NCBI RefSeq assembly: GCF_009712475.1
Contig: NZ_VCJO01000011.1
Span: forward strand, 124,001 to 188,000
Length of the DNA: 64,000 bases
Source: Micromonospora sp. CP22
Lineage (GTDB): Bacteria > Actinomycetota > Actinomycetes > Mycobacteriales > Micromonosporaceae
Direction of reading: 5' to 3'
In this document: positions 35,597 to 41,548 of the stretch, in pieces
Layout of the letters: the number at the start of each line of letters is the position of its first letter
Position numbering within the stretch: the stretch's first letter is position 1
Notes under the pieces: model-generated
Databases searched by the model: none
What the model was told of the DNA's origin: nothing
Seen by the model: the letters and a program-made list of their open reading frames with translations, nothing else
Made by a program: the position numbers and the translations under genes

Positions 35597-36577
35597 TCAG
35601 CCGGCGGCCATTCCGGCGCCCGCCTCGTCGACGGCGTCATCGACCGCGTGTGCCAGGTCGATGTCGCTCGCGGTCACCGCCCCGGCGTTGCCGGAGGTCA
35701 CGGTCAGCACCGCGGTGGTCGGGTCGGCCCGGCCGATCCGTGGCCCGCGCCCCAACTGCTGGCGGAGCAGGTCGAGCCGGTCCAGGACCCGGTCGAGGTT
35801 GCTCGGCGGCAGCTCCAGGGTGCGCGACAGCGCGTTGCCGTCACCGGACCAGTAGGGCAGGTCGGCCAGGGCGGCACGCAGCTCGGCCGCCGACAACGGC
35901 GGGGTCGAACCGACCACGCCGACGACGCCGCCACCGGCCGGCGGTGGCTCCAGCAGCTCCCGCAGCTCGTCCGGTACGTGCAGCGACTCGATCAGGTCAC
36001 CGTCGTGCTCGGCGAGTGCGGCGAGCGTCGCCTGGGCCTGATAGCGGGCCTGCTCCGGGGTGCGACCACTGATCCGGGCCACCTCGGACAGGAAGCCACC
36101 CAGATCCTGGTGCCGCTCGATGCCGTCCACCGGGACCACGTCGTGCAGTGTGGTGGGGACGGCCTCCAGCAGCCGACGACGTTCGCCGTCCTGGAGGGCC
36201 CAGGCCAGGACGAGCACCGTCGACTCGACCCCGACCTTGGCGGTGCGGAAGTCGACGCCGGAACGGCGGACGACGTCCTCGACCAGGTCGCGGTAGCCCA
36301 CCGTGGTGATGCCCGGCGCCGACAGACCCGGCTCTGGAAGGGGCCGGGGCGCCTGCGGGACCCCGGCGGGCGGAGGAGCGGGGCCGCCGCGAGTGGTGTC
36401 CGGTTTGTGGCGGGCACCGACCGGCGCGGGGCCGGCTCGCCGGCTCTGGTCGAGGTGGGTGAGCTGCTTGGACGCGCTCAGGCTGGCCCCGGTGTCGGCG
36501 GCTCGCATACCACGTTCCCGGGCCTGCCGGGCCAGGGCCCGACGGCGCTGGTTGTCACCCTCCATCTGTTTACGCAT
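35597..36577 (-). CDS. DUF2267 / pterin-4a-carbinolamine dehydratase-like fusion protein
   Basis: 326 residues from the ATG at 36577 (GAGG 7 nt upstream). Residues 1-45 are highly charged (RKQMEGDNQRRRALARQARERG); 46-90 are Pro-rich. A DUF2267 domain covers about 92-210 (VGYRDLVEDVVRRSGVDFRTAKVGVEST ... VPDELRELL). Residues about 228-316 resemble pterin-4a-carbinolamine dehydratase: LSAAELRAALADLPYWSGDGNALSRTLELP, then LTVTSGNAGAVTASDIDLA. The catalytic HHP of that family is replaced by GRGP (around 277-279) and the second THD site by TSG, so dehydratase activity is unlikely. Possibly a dimerisation or binding module. Confidence 0.75.
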   Translation of the reverse strand: MRKQMEGDNQRRRALARQARERGMRAADTGASLSASKQLTHLDQSRRAGPAPVGARHKPDTTRGGPAPPPAGVPQAPRPLPEPGLSAPGITTVGYRDLVEDVVRRSGVDFRTAKVGVESTVLVLAWALQDGERRRLLEAVPTTLHDVVPVDGIERHQDLGGFLSEVARISGRTPEQARYQAQATLAALAEHDGDLIESLHVPDELRELLEPPPAGGGVVGVVGSTPPLSAAELRAALADLPYWSGDGNALSRTLELPPSNLDRVLDRLDLLRQQLGRGPRIGRADPTTAVLTVTSGNAGAVTASDIDLAHAVDDAVDEAGAGMAAG

Positions 36578-36699
36578 GGCGTACCTCGCTTCCGTTGGTG
36601 TCGGCCGCTTCGTCGATGGCCTTCCCGGCCGCCGCCGGGGCGAAACGGCCGGGGCGCAGCGGGCAGGGTGGCCCTCGGCCGGTGTCGGCCGGGCTTCAT

Positions 36700-36732
36700 C
36701 CCGCCCGGGTGAGGGTCCGTCACCCGGGCGGG
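36700..36732. other. large perfect hairpin in a divergent promoter region
   Basis: CCCGCCCGGGTGA (36700-36712) and TCACCCGGGCGGG (36720-36732) form a 13-bp stem with a 7-nt loop. The flanking genes are divergent (starts at 36577 and 36792), so it is not a terminator for either. It may be an operator or a 5'-UTR structure of the small gene at 36792. Confidence 0.5.
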
Positions 36733-36791
36733 GCCGACGATCGTGGTGGCCGGAGATCTTCCGAGAGACCCGGCGGAAGGGCAGGTCCGTG

Positions 36792-37094
36792 ATGAAGCGG
36801 ATAGTCGAGATCGTCCCTGCTCGACCCGGTTGGTACTCCCGGTGGCAGGTGGAGCCCGAGCGCACCCGCTGCTACCCGGTGAGCCTGTGGGCGCTGGTGG
36901 AGGAGAGCGACGGTGGGGGTCGCGAGGTGATCGGGGTGGACTGCGTCGGTCAGTGGCCCGGAGCACCGGACGACGGGACGGATGCCGAGTTCGTCCGCTA
37001 TCTGTTCAGAACTCCCGATTCGGGCCCGCCGGAGGACGCGGAGCCGACCACCGAGCCCCACCGCGTGGGTCCGTACCCGGTCCCGGCCCCCTGA
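36792..37094 (+). CDS. conserved small protein of unknown function
   Basis: 100 residues from an ATG preceded by AAGGGCAGG. It starts MKRIVEIVPARPGWYSRW and contains ERTRCYPVSLWALVEESDGGGREVIGVDCVG, with an acidic Pro-rich tail. It has no TM, signal or recognised domain. Codon use and ribosome site support a real gene. The Arg/Trp-rich N-terminus looks like small actinobacterial proteins of about 100 residues with no known role. Confidence 0.6.
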   Translation: MKRIVEIVPARPGWYSRWQVEPERTRCYPVSLWALVEESDGGGREVIGVDCVGQWPGAPDDGTDAEFVRYLFRTPDSGPPEDAEPTTEPHRVGPYPVPAP

Positions 37095-37160: not shown

Positions 37161-37523
37161 TCAGCCGGCCGCCGGCACGTCGCTGTCCCCGACGACGTCG
37201 GATCCGGTGGCCGGCGGAAGCTCCAGCAGGTCGGCGAGGCCGGTGCGGTCCAGCAGGTGGCGCAGCACGGCGTTGACACCGGTCAGTCGCAGCGGCGCCG
37301 AGCCGCCTCGATGCGCCAGCACGAAGGCGCTGAGCCCGGAGGAGTCACACAGACCCACCCCGGTGAGATCGATGACCAACTGCCGGTAGCCGTCGCGGCG
37401 CAGCTCGTCGACGGCGTCGACGAGCTCCGGCGCGCTGTCGAAGTCCAGGTCGCCGGTCAGCCGCAACTCGGCCCGCCCCGCGTCGCGCCGGTCGATCTCG
37501 ATGACCAACAGCTGTGCCGACAT
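37161..37523 (-). CDS. STAS-domain anti-sigma factor antagonist-like protein
   Basis: 120 residues. One STAS domain: ELRLTGDLDFDSAPELVDAVDEL, then LVIDLTGVGLCDSSGLSAFVLAHR with Ser in the DSSGL loop, the site that RsbW/SpoIIAB-type kinases phosphorylate in RsbV/SpoIIAA homologues. The C-terminal 15 residues are an acidic tail. A second STAS gene lies 75 bp upstream on the same strand. Part of a partner-switching set with the SpoIIE-type phosphatase; no HATPase kinase gene lies in this window. Confidence 0.9.
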   Translation of the reverse strand: MSAQLLVIEIDRRDAGRAELRLTGDLDFDSAPELVDAVDELRRDGYRQLVIDLTGVGLCDSSGLSAFVLAHRGGSAPLRLTGVNAVLRHLLDRTGLADLLELPPATGSDVVGDSDVPAAG

Positions 37524-37597: not shown

Positions 37598-37981
37598 CTA
37601 CGCGGTGGCCGGAGACTGGTCGTCGGGCGCGGCGTCGGTGGGCTCGCGGGCCAGCAGGCCGGTGACCCCGGTCATGTCGAGGATGGCCTGGAGGAACCGG
37701 GGGACCGCGTGCAGCCGCAGCCGGGTGTCCCGCTGCTGCCCCTCACGCCAGGCGTGCACGATCACGCTGAGTCCGGTGCTGTCGACGAACTGGAGGCCGC
37801 CGAAGTCGAGCACCAGCGTGGCCGGGGCGGTGCTCACGATCTGGTCGATCTCGCGCCGCAGCGACTCGGCGGAGGCGTACGCGAGGTCACCGGCGACCCG
37901 GATCACGGGTGCGTCGGGGTCGGACCGGTCGACGGACACGCTCAGCGGCGAGGTCTCGGGTCTGCGACCGTGGGACAGCAA
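37598..37981 (-). CDS. second STAS-domain anti-sigma factor antagonist-like protein
   Basis: 127 residues from a TTG at 37981 with GGAAGG 9 nt upstream. The STAS domain has VIRVAGDLAYASAESLRREID and LVLDFGGLQFVDSTGLSVIVHAWR, with Ser-Thr in DSTGL as phospho-acceptor. The substitution pattern differs from the first STAS protein, so the two may read different kinases. Divergent from the PP2C phosphatase gene, its likely phosphatase. Confidence 0.9.
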   Translation of the reverse strand: MLSHGRRPETSPLSVSVDRSDPDAPVIRVAGDLAYASAESLRREIDQIVSTAPATLVLDFGGLQFVDSTGLSVIVHAWREGQQRDTRLRLHAVPRFLQAILDMTGVTGLLAREPTDAAPDDQSPATA

Positions 37982-38191
37982 CGATCACGCCTTCCGCAGG
38001 TGGCGGGCGGGCAGGGGCGCTCGGATCGTAACAACGTCGAGCTGAGCCGCGTGTCAGGCGGTCGTCAGCGTCCGACGGCCGCCTCAGCCGGGTGGCACCA
38101 CCCGCCAAGCCGCGTAGGCTGGGTGCGGGACATGACCAAGCAGGCCGCTCGACGCGGCTGCGGAACGCGACAAGGAGCGAGGCTCAAGCTG

Positions 38192-39946
38192 GTGACAGGT
38201 GCCGACGTCAGGGACCTCGACCCCGGCGACGGACGGTCTTCCACACCGAGTGTCGCCCGGGCCCCGGCCTGGCGCGCGTCCACCTCCCGTCCGGCTGCCG
38301 GGCTGCCCGCGCTGGACCGGCCCCAGGGCCAACTCGCCGCCGACTGGCCCGACGTCGCCGAGCATCTCCGCGAAGGCGTGGTGGTGTGCGGCCCGGACGG
38401 TACGGTCCGGTACCTCAGCCCGGTGGCGCAGCGGCTGCTGCCGGAAGTGGTCGTCGGCGGCACCCTCGCGGTGGTCGAGCGGCTCGCCTCGGCAGATCCA
38501 CACCTGCGCCATCACGGCCGACGGTTGCGGGTGCGTCGGGTCGCCCTGTCCGCCGGGCGGAGCTGCTGGTACGTCGAGGACGTCAGCGACAGCGAACAGC
38601 GGGCCGAGGAACTGGCCGCCGAGCGGGCCAGGTCGTCCTTCCTGGCCGTGGTCGGCGACAAGCTGGGCAACCCACTGCACCCGGATCGGGCCGCCGCCGC
38701 GGTGGTCCGCCTCGCCGTACCCACCCTGGCGGAGGTGGCGGTGCTGGTGTTGGCACCCCGCTCCGGCCGGGCCCGATGGTGGCGTGCCCGCCAGGGCCCG
38801 GACGCCACGCCCACCGTCGACCACGGCGTACTCGGCGCGACGGAACTTCCCCCGGCGATCGCCGAGAGCCTGCGGGGCACCCAGCCGCAGACCGTGGACT
38901 GGCTGGTCGAGCAGAGCATCGACGCGGGTTGGCTGCCCGGTGTCGCCGCCACCGAGGTGGCTGCCCGCCTGGTGCCGTTGCCGGGCCGGGACGGGCCCGC
39001 CGGGGTGCTGCTGGTCGCGCGGGGATCGGGTGACTGGTACGGCGAGGACGACGTCGACCTGGTCCGCGCCTTCGCCGGCCGGGCCGGTGCGGCGTTGACC
39101 ACCGCGCTGCTCTACCGCGAGCAGGCCGAGGTGGCCGACATGTTGCAGGCCAGTTTGCTGCCCGTCGAGCCGACACCGGCACCGGGTGTGCAGTGGGGTA
39201 CGGCGTACCGCCCGGCGCAGGCCAGTCTGCGCATCGGCGGTGACTTCTACGGCTCGCACCGGCTGCCCGACGGCGGTTCGGTGTTCTACCTCGGCGACGT
39301 CTCCGGCAAGGGGGTCGAGGCGGCGGTCTTCACCGGGCAGCTGCGTCAGTGTCTGCACGCGTTGCACCGGGTCGAGCACCAGCCCGCCAAGCTGTTGCGG
39401 CTGCTCAACGACGCCCTGCTGGAGACGACCCTGGCGCACGGTCAGGGTCGGTTCGCCACCATGGTGCTGGGGGTGGTCCGTCCTGACCGCGACGGTGGCC
39501 TGTCGCTGACCCTGGCCGGCGGGGGGCACCTGCCGCCGCTGGTGTTGCGCAACTCCGGCGAGGTGGAGCAGGTGCCGCTGAACGGCATGCTCATCGGCGT
39601 GGTGCCGGACCCACGGATCGGCCAGGTCACCACCCGGCTGGCCCCGGGCGAGACCTGCCTGCTCTACAGCGACGGAGTCACCGAGGCGCGGGGCGGGCGG
39701 CGGGGTGAGGAGCTGCTCGGCACCGATCGCCTGATCCAGGCGCTCGACGGGTGTCACCGGATGCCGGCACCCGCGCTGGCCGAGCGGATCGAGCAGATCA
39801 CCTGCGACTGGCTGGCCCAGCGGGACCACGACGACATCGCGGTGCTGGCGCTGCGCGCCGCCGGAGCGGGTGGCCGCCCCCAGCGGCACCTGCACGCGGT
39901 CCCGACAGCGGTCGAGTCGCAGCCGCAGGAGAGGATCGCCCGGTGA
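38192..39946 (+). CDS. PAS-GAF-PP2C (SpoIIE-type) protein phosphatase
   Basis: 584 residues from the GTG at 38192; AAGGAGCGAGG precedes it. An ATG at 38132 in the same frame lies 12 nt after a TAGGCT -10-like hexamer and is an alternative. Residues about 50-125 look like a PAS domain (VAEHLREGVVVCGPDGTVRYLSPVAQRLL), 150-310 like GAF, and about 345-560 form SpoIIE PP2C: LRIGGDFYG, YLGDVSGKGVEAAVF, GGHLPPLVL, LYSDGVTEARGG and HDDIAVLAL, with the metal-binding Asp residues. It would dephosphorylate STAS proteins. The cobalamin-binding gene overlaps its stop by 4 nt, which suggests a shared signalling function. Confidence 0.92.
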   Translation: MTGADVRDLDPGDGRSSTPSVARAPAWRASTSRPAAGLPALDRPQGQLAADWPDVAEHLREGVVVCGPDGTVRYLSPVAQRLLPEVVVGGTLAVVERLASADPHLRHHGRRLRVRRVALSAGRSCWYVEDVSDSEQRAEELAAERARSSFLAVVGDKLGNPLHPDRAAAAVVRLAVPTLAEVAVLVLAPRSGRARWWRARQGPDATPTVDHGVLGATELPPAIAESLRGTQPQTVDWLVEQSIDAGWLPGVAATEVAARLVPLPGRDGPAGVLLVARGSGDWYGEDDVDLVRAFAGRAGAALTTALLYREQAEVADMLQASLLPVEPTPAPGVQWGTAYRPAQASLRIGGDFYGSHRLPDGGSVFYLGDVSGKGVEAAVFTGQLRQCLHALHRVEHQPAKLLRLLNDALLETTLAHGQGRFATMVLGVVRPDRDGGLSLTLAGGGHLPPLVLRNSGEVEQVPLNGMLIGVVPDPRIGQVTTRLAPGETCLLYSDGVTEARGGRRGEELLGTDRLIQALDGCHRMPAPALAERIEQITCDWLAQRDHDDIAVLALRAAGAGGRPQRHLHAVPTAVESQPQERIAR

Positions 39947-40974
39947 CCACCGCGACGAGGGACACCGTGCCCGGGGCCGTCTACCAGGATTACCTGCACT
40001 GTCTGGCCGAGGCCGACGAGTACGGCGCGATCGAGGTGGCCCGCGGACTGCTCGCCACCGGCGTGGCCGCCGATCGCGTCCTGCTGGAACTCGTGGCACC
40101 GGCGCAGGCCGAGGTGGGGGAGCGGTGGGCCCGCAACGAGTGGAGCGTGGCCCAGGAGCACGCGGCGACGCACATCAGCGAACGGGTGGTGGCGGCGGTC
40201 GCCGCGTACGCGGACGTCCGTCCGACCCGCCCCCGGATCGTGGTGGCCTGCATGGACGGCGAGTGGCACGCGCTGCCGGCGCGGCTGGTCGCCGAGGTGC
40301 TCCGGCTGCGCGGTTGGCAGGTCACCTTCCTGGGCGCCAGCGTCCCGGCCGCCCACCTGATGTCGTATCTGCACCGGTACGACGCCCACGCGGTGGCGCT
40401 CGCCTCCGCGCTGCCGATGCGGTTGCCCCACGCGCACCGGATGATCGAGGCGTGCCGGCGTTCGGACGTGCCGGTCCTGGTCGGCGGGCGGGGCTTCGGC
40501 ACGGACGGCCGGTGGGCGCGGCGGCTCGGCGTGCCGTGGGCCGCCAACGCCGTCGACGCCGCCGCCCTGCTCGACGACGAGCGGGCCCTGCGCGCGTCGA
40601 CACCGGCGGCCCTGGCGCACCTGGGCGACGACGAGTACGCCGGTCTGGTCAACCGTCGTGGCGAGCTGATCGACTCGGCGCTGGTCGAGTTGGCGCGGCA
40701 GTTCCCGGCCATCGGCGGCTACCGGCCCGCCCAGCTGGACTCGACGATCAGCGACCTCGGGTACATCCTCGACTTCCTGGCCGCCGCGCTCTACGTCGAC
40801 GACGGATCGCTGTTCGCCGAGTTCATCGAGTGGCTGGCCACCATCCTGGACAGCCGTGGGGTGCCGGCCGCGACGGTGGACGCCGCGCTGGCTCACTACG
40901 GGCGGGTGTTGCACGACTTTCCCCGGGCGGTGGAGCACCTCCAGGGTGGCCGCGCGGTGCTGTCGGCAGGTTGA
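39943..40974 (+). CDS. cobalamin-binding sensor protein (CarH-like cap domain, no HTH)
   Basis: 343 residues from a GTG that overlaps the phosphatase stop. A four-helix cap (about 10-92) carries W62-x9-E72-H73, the signature of AdoCbl photoreceptors such as CarH/LitR. The Rossmann B12 domain (about 96-212) has E107-W-H109, the axial-ligand position of ExHxxG (the Gly is Pro here), and later VLVGGRGFG. A helical domain of about 125 residues (215-343) replaces a DNA-binding region; it resembles globin-like RsbR-type sensor domains, but this is weak. No MerR HTH is present. Fits a B12-based light or redox sensor for the adjacent phosphatase; the light-sensing part is inference. Confidence 0.85.
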   Translation: MTTATRDTVPGAVYQDYLHCLAEADEYGAIEVARGLLATGVAADRVLLELVAPAQAEVGERWARNEWSVAQEHAATHISERVVAAVAAYADVRPTRPRIVVACMDGEWHALPARLVAEVLRLRGWQVTFLGASVPAAHLMSYLHRYDAHAVALASALPMRLPHAHRMIEACRRSDVPVLVGGRGFGTDGRWARRLGVPWAANAVDAAALLDDERALRASTPAALAHLGDDEYAGLVNRRGELIDSALVELARQFPAIGGYRPAQLDSTISDLGYILDFLAAALYVDDGSLFAEFIEWLATILDSRGVPAATVDAALAHYGRVLHDFPRAVEHLQGGRAVLSAG

Positions 40975-41101
40975 CCGAACCGGGCGCGACCCGGCTGCGA
41001 CACGCCGGACCCCGGCGGACACCGACCGTCCGACGATGGGCTAGATTTCCGCCAGCGCGGGGCCGGCAGGTTCCGTCCTGGCCGACCTGAGGCAGGTAGA
41101 G

Positions 41102-41548
41102 ATGGGCGCACACACCCTCGCTCCGGTTCGTATTCTCGTCGTCGACGACGACCCGGGCGACGTGCTCATGATCGAGGAAGCGCTGGCCACCTCGGACGTC
41201 GAGAAGGTGATCGACGTGGTCGGTGACGGCCAGGAGGCGATGGAGTTCCTCCGCCGCGAGGGCCGTCACAGCGACGCGCAGCGGCCGGACGTGATCCTGC
41301 TCGACCTCAACATGCCGAGGATGGACGGGCGTCAGGTGCTCGGAGAGGTGAAGGGCGACGAGGATCTGCGGACCATCCCGATCGTCGTGCTCACCACCTC
41401 GAACGCGGACACCGACATCATCAGCAGCTACACGTTGCAGGCCAACGCGTACGTGACCAAGCCGATCGACCTGGACGACTTCAACGACGTGGTGCACCGC
41501 ATCGACGAGTTCTTCGGTCGGGTGGTGGTGTTGCCCAAGCGGAGCTGA
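41102..41548 (+). CDS. single-domain response regulator (Rcp1/CheY-like)
   Basis: 148 residues. Receiver domain only: VRILVVDDDPGDVLMIEEAL, phospho-acceptor Asp in VILLDLNMPRMDGRQVL, TTSNADTDI and the KPID Lys. The DDDPGDVLM and NMPRMDG forms match the Rcp1 group, which usually serves phytochrome-type histidine kinases. No kinase is next to it; it follows the cobalamin protein by 127 bp. A TAGATT -10-like hexamer at 41042-41047 suggests its own promoter. Confidence 0.92.
   Translation: MGAHTLAPVRILVVDDDPGDVLMIEEALATSDVEKVIDVVGDGQEAMEFLRREGRHSDAQRPDVILLDLNMPRMDGRQVLGEVKGDEDLRTIPIVVLTTSNADTDIISSYTLQANAYVTKPIDLDDFNDVVHRIDEFFGRVVVLPKRS

Follow-up and report, generated by a model that had tools for sequence, protein, structure and literature searches.

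The gene of a stand-alone photocobilin (Pcob) and that of a SpoIIE-type PP2C phosphatase form a partnership that is unusually well conserved across the class. Pcob is probably a regulatory subunit through which light switches this SpoIIE/RsbU-type enzyme, the gene of which overlaps its own. The pair was studied in the window (the whole stretch of DNA analysed, 64,000 nt), where the GTG start of Pcob (39943-39945) overlaps the TGA of the phosphatase frame (39944-39946) by 4 nt, an overlap already pointed out in the earlier note (Table 1).

In the mechanism proposed, Pcob would hold adenosylcobalamin (AdoCbl) in the dark as a head-to-tail dimer, and green light, or red light acting through bound biliverdin, would break the Co-C bond and give monomers with a shifted cap helix. 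Both steps are carried over from SasPcob, the crystallised stand-alone photocobilin of Saccharothrix syringae (PDB 8J2W, 8J2X), for which they are described in PMC10979010. The light-induced change could then alter the contact with the phosphatase, the activity of which would set the phosphorylation of the STAS antagonists, and their phosphorylation state may in turn determine whether a sigma factor, or another client of an RsbW-like kinase, is set free. We infer the physical contact between the two proteins, the direction of control, the STAS target, the kinase and the sigma factor, and with them the light control of the phosphatase.

Table 1. Features around the photocobilin gene (window coordinates)
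Feature	Position	Strand	Details
STAS_A, anti-sigma-antagonist-like	37161..37523	-	PF13466 E 1e-13; DSSG site
STAS_B, anti-sigma-antagonist-like	37598..37981	-	PF01740 E 3e-16; DSTG site
SpoIIE-type PP2C phosphatase	38192..39946	+	584 aa; PF07228 E 1e-42; PAS-like and GAF-like N-terminal parts
Photocobilin (Pcob)	39943..40974	+	343 aa; GTG start
Pcob four-helix B12 cap, residues 10-89	39970..40209	+	PF02607 at residues 14-85; carries W62, E72, H73
Pcob Rossmann B12-binding domain, residues 96-217	40228..40593	+	PF02310 at residues 98-196; predicted model; E107-x-H109, H138
Pcob bilin-type globin domain, residues 224-343	40612..40971	+	D271, W297; no cysteine
Scar of deleted third STAS gene (not a gene)	40975..41044	+	Last codons and stop recognisable; alignment with L005
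Single-domain response regulator (not a core part)	41102..41548	+	PF00072 E 1e-20

The photocobilin of the window

Pcob aligned with SasPcob over nearly its whole length, with 182 of 327 residues identical (56%), and the predicted fold of the two proteins was alike. All eight checked residues were conserved between them. In particular, W62, E72-H73 and E107-x-H109 aligned with W61, E71-H72, E106 and H108 of SasPcob, and D271, W297 and H138 corresponded to the bilin contacts Asp270, Trp296 and His137 in SasPcob numbering, with the cysteine of a covalently bound bilin absent from the globin domain. Two Pfam matches were obtained, B12-binding (E 2e-16) and B12-binding_2 (E 2e-14), with none further above the Pfam cut-offs; the same search gave no MerR match at E<=1 and no STAS domain in the Pcob chain. 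The predicted model has cap helices at residues 10-22, 26-38, 43-63 and 69-89, and its residues 224-343 matched SasPcob and phycobiliproteins in the fold comparison. By sequence, chromophore residues and fold, Pcob is a photocobilin and unremarkable within this photoreceptor family, which was published in 2024; the function of its stand-alone members has been called 'less clear' (PMC10979010). Judging by these residues, Pcob would bind both AdoCbl and biliverdin. Its design is taken to be B12 plus biliverdin, and not B12 alone, because it belongs to the photocobilins, a family with solved structures.

The earlier note had read this frame, from its W62-x9-E72-H73 and H109, as a CarH-type cobalamin domain in which a helical C-terminal domain takes the place of the MerR helix-turn-helix, and had B12 as the only chromophore. 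The frame, the residues and the absence of MerR stand, and so does a cap plus Rossmann domain of the AdoCbl light-sensor type; the protein is, however, no CarH relic, and its family points to biliverdin beside B12. Likewise, the structure prediction suggested there as a check gave the four-helix cap and a helical C-terminal domain that is an identifiable bilin-type globin, not an unexplained replacement.

The sole other Pcob relative found in the window's own genome in this search lies on contig C50 (L002:1456-2460, minus strand), and its N-terminus, read by eye, resembles a MerR-type domain ahead of the B12 domain, as in CarH/LitR. A consensus scan of positions 37950-41200 of the window gave neither a sigma-70 promoter nor a terminator.

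Conservation of the pairing

The pairing was followed in two sets of loci. The Micromonosporaceae set consisted of 63 related loci (one from Asanoa, the rest titled Micromonospora or Verrucosispora). The class sample was an even draw of 296 genomes, 48 of which had a Pcob match at E<=1e-20 with mostly the best seven candidates per genome scored, and it provided 52 class loci, i.e. places outside the window's own genome, with two tandem second copies falling inside those stretches. A phosphatase gene lay upstream of Pcob in all 63 Micromonosporaceae loci and, on the same strand and within 1.5 kb, in 41 of the 52 class loci, while the other 11 had none within that distance. Outside the window's own family it was upstream in 38 of 49 class loci, found in 35 genomes of eight families, and the linkage spans nine actinomycete families when the own family is counted. 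As a rough background, the 5.85 Mb of the window's own genome contain ten SpoIIE matches. The genetic link to a PP2C/STAS module that the earlier note had drawn from this one place is therefore strong and reaches far beyond the genus, and the linkage held in the related genomes where it could have failed.

An overlap of 4 or 1 nt between a possible Pcob start codon and the stop of the phosphatase was seen at 57 of the 63 Micromonosporaceae loci, as well as at 32 of the 41 class loci with a linked phosphatase, and no one-frame fusion of Pcob with a PP2C, STAS or response regulator domain was found among 115 loci. Two loci (L100 and L101) had tandem photocobilin genes between a single phosphatase gene upstream and a STAS gene downstream. 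Moreover, in three Micromonospora genomes (L236, L239 and L240) a fragmentary Pcob adjoined a full-length phosphatase; unless these are assembly errors, which are possible, the phosphatase can therefore persist without Pcob. Elsewhere in the window, a single frame on the minus strand (35597-36865) combines DUF2267 with a pterin-4a-carbinolamine-dehydratase-like domain, and it was present in 55 of the 63 related loci.

The phosphatase lineage

Comparison with relatives placed the likely start of the phosphatase at GTG 38192. Its metal-binding motifs GGDF, GDVSGKG, SDG and HDDI were present, its GAF_3 and PAS_4 matches remained below the Pfam cut-offs, and its model (pLDDT 72) had RssB, SpoIIE and the RsbU-like phosphatase domain of Rv1364c as best fold matches. 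One group (100/99) in a tree of 57 phosphatase domains comprised 32 of the linked ones together with that of the window and one other from the window's own genome; the other 12 linked phosphatases were split over two groups, the linked state taking three changes on a tree in which long branches leave parts unsure. The other own-genome member (L200:3277-5010, contig C6) has no Pcob adjoining it, and two related Micromonospora loci (L241 and L242) have a Pcob paired with a phosphatase of this second type.

Distances among Pcob sequences and among their phosphatases were correlated over 43 pairs (r 0.89, the short L144 Pcob being dropped), a value reached in none of 2000 permutations and explained in part by shared species history. 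More telling than this correlation are three genomes (G003, G249 and G290) with two Pcob-phosphatase pairs each, since the Pcob and the phosphatase of any one pair occupy corresponding groups in their respective trees. One discordance was found, with L122 switching sides between the Pcob and phosphatase trees.

Chromophore residues and bilin supply

Conservation was scored in a Micromonosporaceae alignment of 61 rows, made of the window and the sequences that aligned over more than 280 residues (L061, L064 and L065, cut or fragmentary, were dropped), and in a class alignment of 52 copies from 50 loci, of which two carry copies in tandem; L144 and L145, being partial, were excluded. All eight checked residues were invariant in the 61 Micromonosporaceae rows, window included, by which the W-x9-EH pattern is not a chance match. 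Among the class copies, the B12 residues W62 (51/52), E72 (52/52), H73 (51/52) and H109 (50/52) were retained, and on the bilin side W297 was kept in 51, D271 in 37 and H138 in 34. The B12 side is therefore the core, with 50-52 of 52 copies retaining the AdoCbl residues and 37 retaining D271, the bilin Asp having been lost in some class lineages.

A heme oxygenase was not found in the window's own genome (99.99% complete) with PF01126, DUF2470 or a divergent query. In a genus sample of 121 genomes, 93 had a Pcob match, with incomplete or broken copies included (G344, G346, G349, G353 and G387 at a minimum), and 32 had a PF01126 match. All of these 32 were among the 93, a broken copy in the case of G353, as against none of the 28 Pcob-less genomes (p 6e-5, relatedness ignored), which leaves 61 Pcob genomes of the genus without a PF01126 match. 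At class level the enrichment was weak (25 of 48 Pcob genomes vs. 90 of 248, p 0.05), and of the 35 class genomes with an Asp-bearing Pcob copy, 19 had a PF01126 match and 16 did not. Furthermore, the divergent oxygenase query found 14 of the 121 genus genomes, of which G328, G360, G365 and G377 were outside the PF01126 list when compared by eye. PF01126 thus misses some divergent oxygenases, and absence from the window's own genome is for this reason no proof. Either the source of bilin is unrecognised or Pcob often works with AdoCbl alone.

The second option, in which Pcob here would respond to green light only, or to AdoCbl status, with its bilin pocket empty or otherwise filled, has a little less than an even chance in our judgement, and it is compatible with the output half of the proposed mechanism. 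The missing heme oxygenase here and in 61 of the 93 genomes favours it, as does the looser conservation of D271 relative to the AdoCbl residues at class level. However, D271, W297 and H138 do not vary in any of the 61 Micromonosporaceae rows, many of which come from genomes that likely have no heme oxygenase, and the restriction of PF01126 to Pcob genomes in the genus sample also counts against it.

STAS, kinase and response regulator genes

STAS_A and STAS_B diverge from the phosphatase gene and a response regulator gene follows Pcob, as the earlier note had described. At least one divergent STAS gene was found in 60 of the 63 Micromonosporaceae loci, and 55 had a further STAS gene between Pcob and the response regulator; at class level, a STAS gene lay downstream of Pcob in 22 of 52 loci. 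The D-S-[ST]-G motif was kept by 54 of the 55 downstream STAS matches in Micromonosporaceae vs. 11 of the 26 at class level, a pattern that speaks against one simple phospho-switch shared by the class loci. The response regulator, which the earlier note had listed beside the STAS proteins, was downstream of Pcob in 60 of the 63 Micromonosporaceae loci but is a genus-level neighbour; as a core part it was rejected, since beyond the family only L109, out of 49 class loci, has it co-directional and downstream.

Kinases were sought within 4 kb of Pcob with a profile built from the HATPase_c_2 matches of the window's own genome. None was found by this profile in the 63 Micromonosporaceae loci; the 44 HATPase_c_2 matches of the own genome, some of them histidine-kinase-like, lie elsewhere or too far away to be linked. 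An RsbW-like kinase gene was within this distance in 13 of the 52 class loci, and in seven (L104, L105, L106, L109, L137, L138 and L142) the order STAS-kinase-phosphatase-Pcob was found on one strand; operons with STAS and kinase genes occur in several of the actinomycete families. The bilin Asp is absent in three of these seven (L137, L138 and L142).

The third STAS gene is missing in the window and in L003, L004, L007, L058 and L064. In a tree of 14 phosphatases, a single branch (90/86; one change) separates the loci without it from the rest. The interval from Pcob to the response regulator in the window aligns to either end of its longer counterpart in L005, where the gene is still present. 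The window's clade has deleted its third STAS gene and kept Pcob. In relatives, a promoter- and operator-like motif, TATACTTGC-N3-ACTGCAA, is conserved upstream of this gene and is absent from the window; in L005 it is intergenic and begins about 79 nt past the aligned Pcob end. Its short form, TATA[CG]TTG, occurred within 400 nt in 57 of 63 loci. Of 25 Micromonospora genomes, 20 had a single copy of the long form, with at most one mismatch, and 16 further genomes had none; a reversed-pattern control was found in 3 of the 41, and three of the 20 motif-bearing genomes (G306, G310 and G314) have no Pcob match.

A target of Pcob other than the phosphatase, be it the STAS proteins or some further client such as a cyclase, is unlikely; the gene overlap would then serve only to equalise the levels of two members of one pathway. 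The STAS genes that follow Pcob in both sets of loci agree with this possibility, and SasPcob acts in vitro on a cyclase from another organism (PMC10979010). Nevertheless, the phosphatase is the more constant neighbour (41 vs. 22 of the 52 class loci), and the loss of the downstream STAS gene in a clade that kept Pcob also speaks against it.

A probable light-switched subunit of the phosphatase

That Pcob regulates the overlapped phosphatase in response to light is supported by the presence of this gene upstream in 63/63 and 41/52 loci in spite of the low density of SpoIIE matches in the genome, and by the published effect of light-adapted photocobilins on a diguanylate cyclase not fused to them, exerted through protein contact (PMC10979010). 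Counting against it are the phosphatases without Pcob (the second one of the window's own genome and those beside fragmentary copies), the 11 class loci that lack a phosphatase, the kinase search in Micromonosporaceae, the class-level STAS motif and the L122 discordance.

It would be improbable for Pcob to be a B12 or redox sensor, as the earlier note had also suggested, with the AdoCbl supply setting the dimer and hence the phosphatase. AdoCbl binding by itself lowers the cyclase activity of AbDPcob (PMC10979010) and the AdoCbl residues are the best-conserved part of the protein; on the other hand, the combination of W, EH and the lower His is that of the light-responsive CarH and SasPcob, and a bilin-type second domain makes little sense without light. 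Plain neighbourhood conservation with no functional coupling would fit the unrelated flanks, which are also conserved within Micromonospora (DUF2267 in 55/63 and SLT in 58/63 loci), but it is very improbable, since the phosphatase is kept in loci outside the family, mostly with the stop-start overlap, and the paralogous pairs stay together.

If the light-switched subunit is taken as the general case, the usual job of stand-alone photocobilins in actinomycetes would be that of a dedicated light-sensing subunit of one PAS-GAF-PP2C phosphatase lineage, giving wide-spectrum light control of partner switching, and where no heme oxygenase is found they would use AdoCbl alone or a bilin from an unrecognised source; we regard this broader statement as evenly balanced. 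Should light control be real, green and red light would be an input into actinomycete partner switching, and the two genes would make up a light-controlled phosphatase. The photoglobin paper of Schneider et al. 2022 reportedly describes the neighbourhoods of B12-photoglobins and may already show phosphatases there. In a literature search with that paper outside its reach, no prior report of the pairing extent, the overlap, the co-segregation or the kinase operons was found, nor any experiment on Pcob with a phosphatase.

Comparison with known systems

The idea of a SpoIIE/STAS partner is not new, as STAS, SpoIIE and PP2C proteins were named potential SasPcob partners from a STRING network in PMC10979010, the only source in which the search found a phosphatase link. 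The present analysis adds how far the pairing reaches, how often the two genes overlap, that paralogous pairs segregate together and that some operons also contain a kinase gene; beyond those network suggestions, the pairing points to one specific candidate partner for stand-alone photocobilins. With respect to SasPcob itself, the window Pcob comes from a different genus, the photochemistry is known for SasPcob, and a heme oxygenase was not found in the window's genome. AbDPcob/AbPcob (PDB 8J2Y) is fused to a diguanylate cyclase and has His at the bilin Asp site (PMC10979010), whereas the window Pcob has no fused output domain and keeps Asp271.

CarH/LitR (PDB 5C8D, 3WHP) share with Pcob the B12 cap and Rossmann domain, the W, the EH and the lower-ligand His, but they have a MerR-type DNA-binding domain, and Pcob has an extra globin domain. 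Membership of CarH was rejected for Pcob, given the missing MerR domain and an NCBIfam CarH score of 64 against a cut-off of 400. The locus resembles RsbU/RsbV/RsbW and SpoIIE-type phosphatases in its PP2C and STAS proteins and, in some Pcob relatives, in an adjoining RsbW-like kinase; unlike those systems, the sensor of the window locus is a separate B12-bilin protein and no kinase gene adjoins it. RsbR, the non-heme globin sensor of the stressosome, is likewise a globin-type sensor upstream of partner switching, but the Pcob chain has no STAS domain and is built for bilin and B12. An RsbR-like single chain was rejected for this lack of a STAS domain. The B12 analogue of an RsbR input proposed in the earlier note thus holds loosely, in that photoglobins group with bilin-binding globins in a published phylogeny with the RsbR globin as outgroup (PMC10151467), and not in architecture, Pcob being a separate protein.
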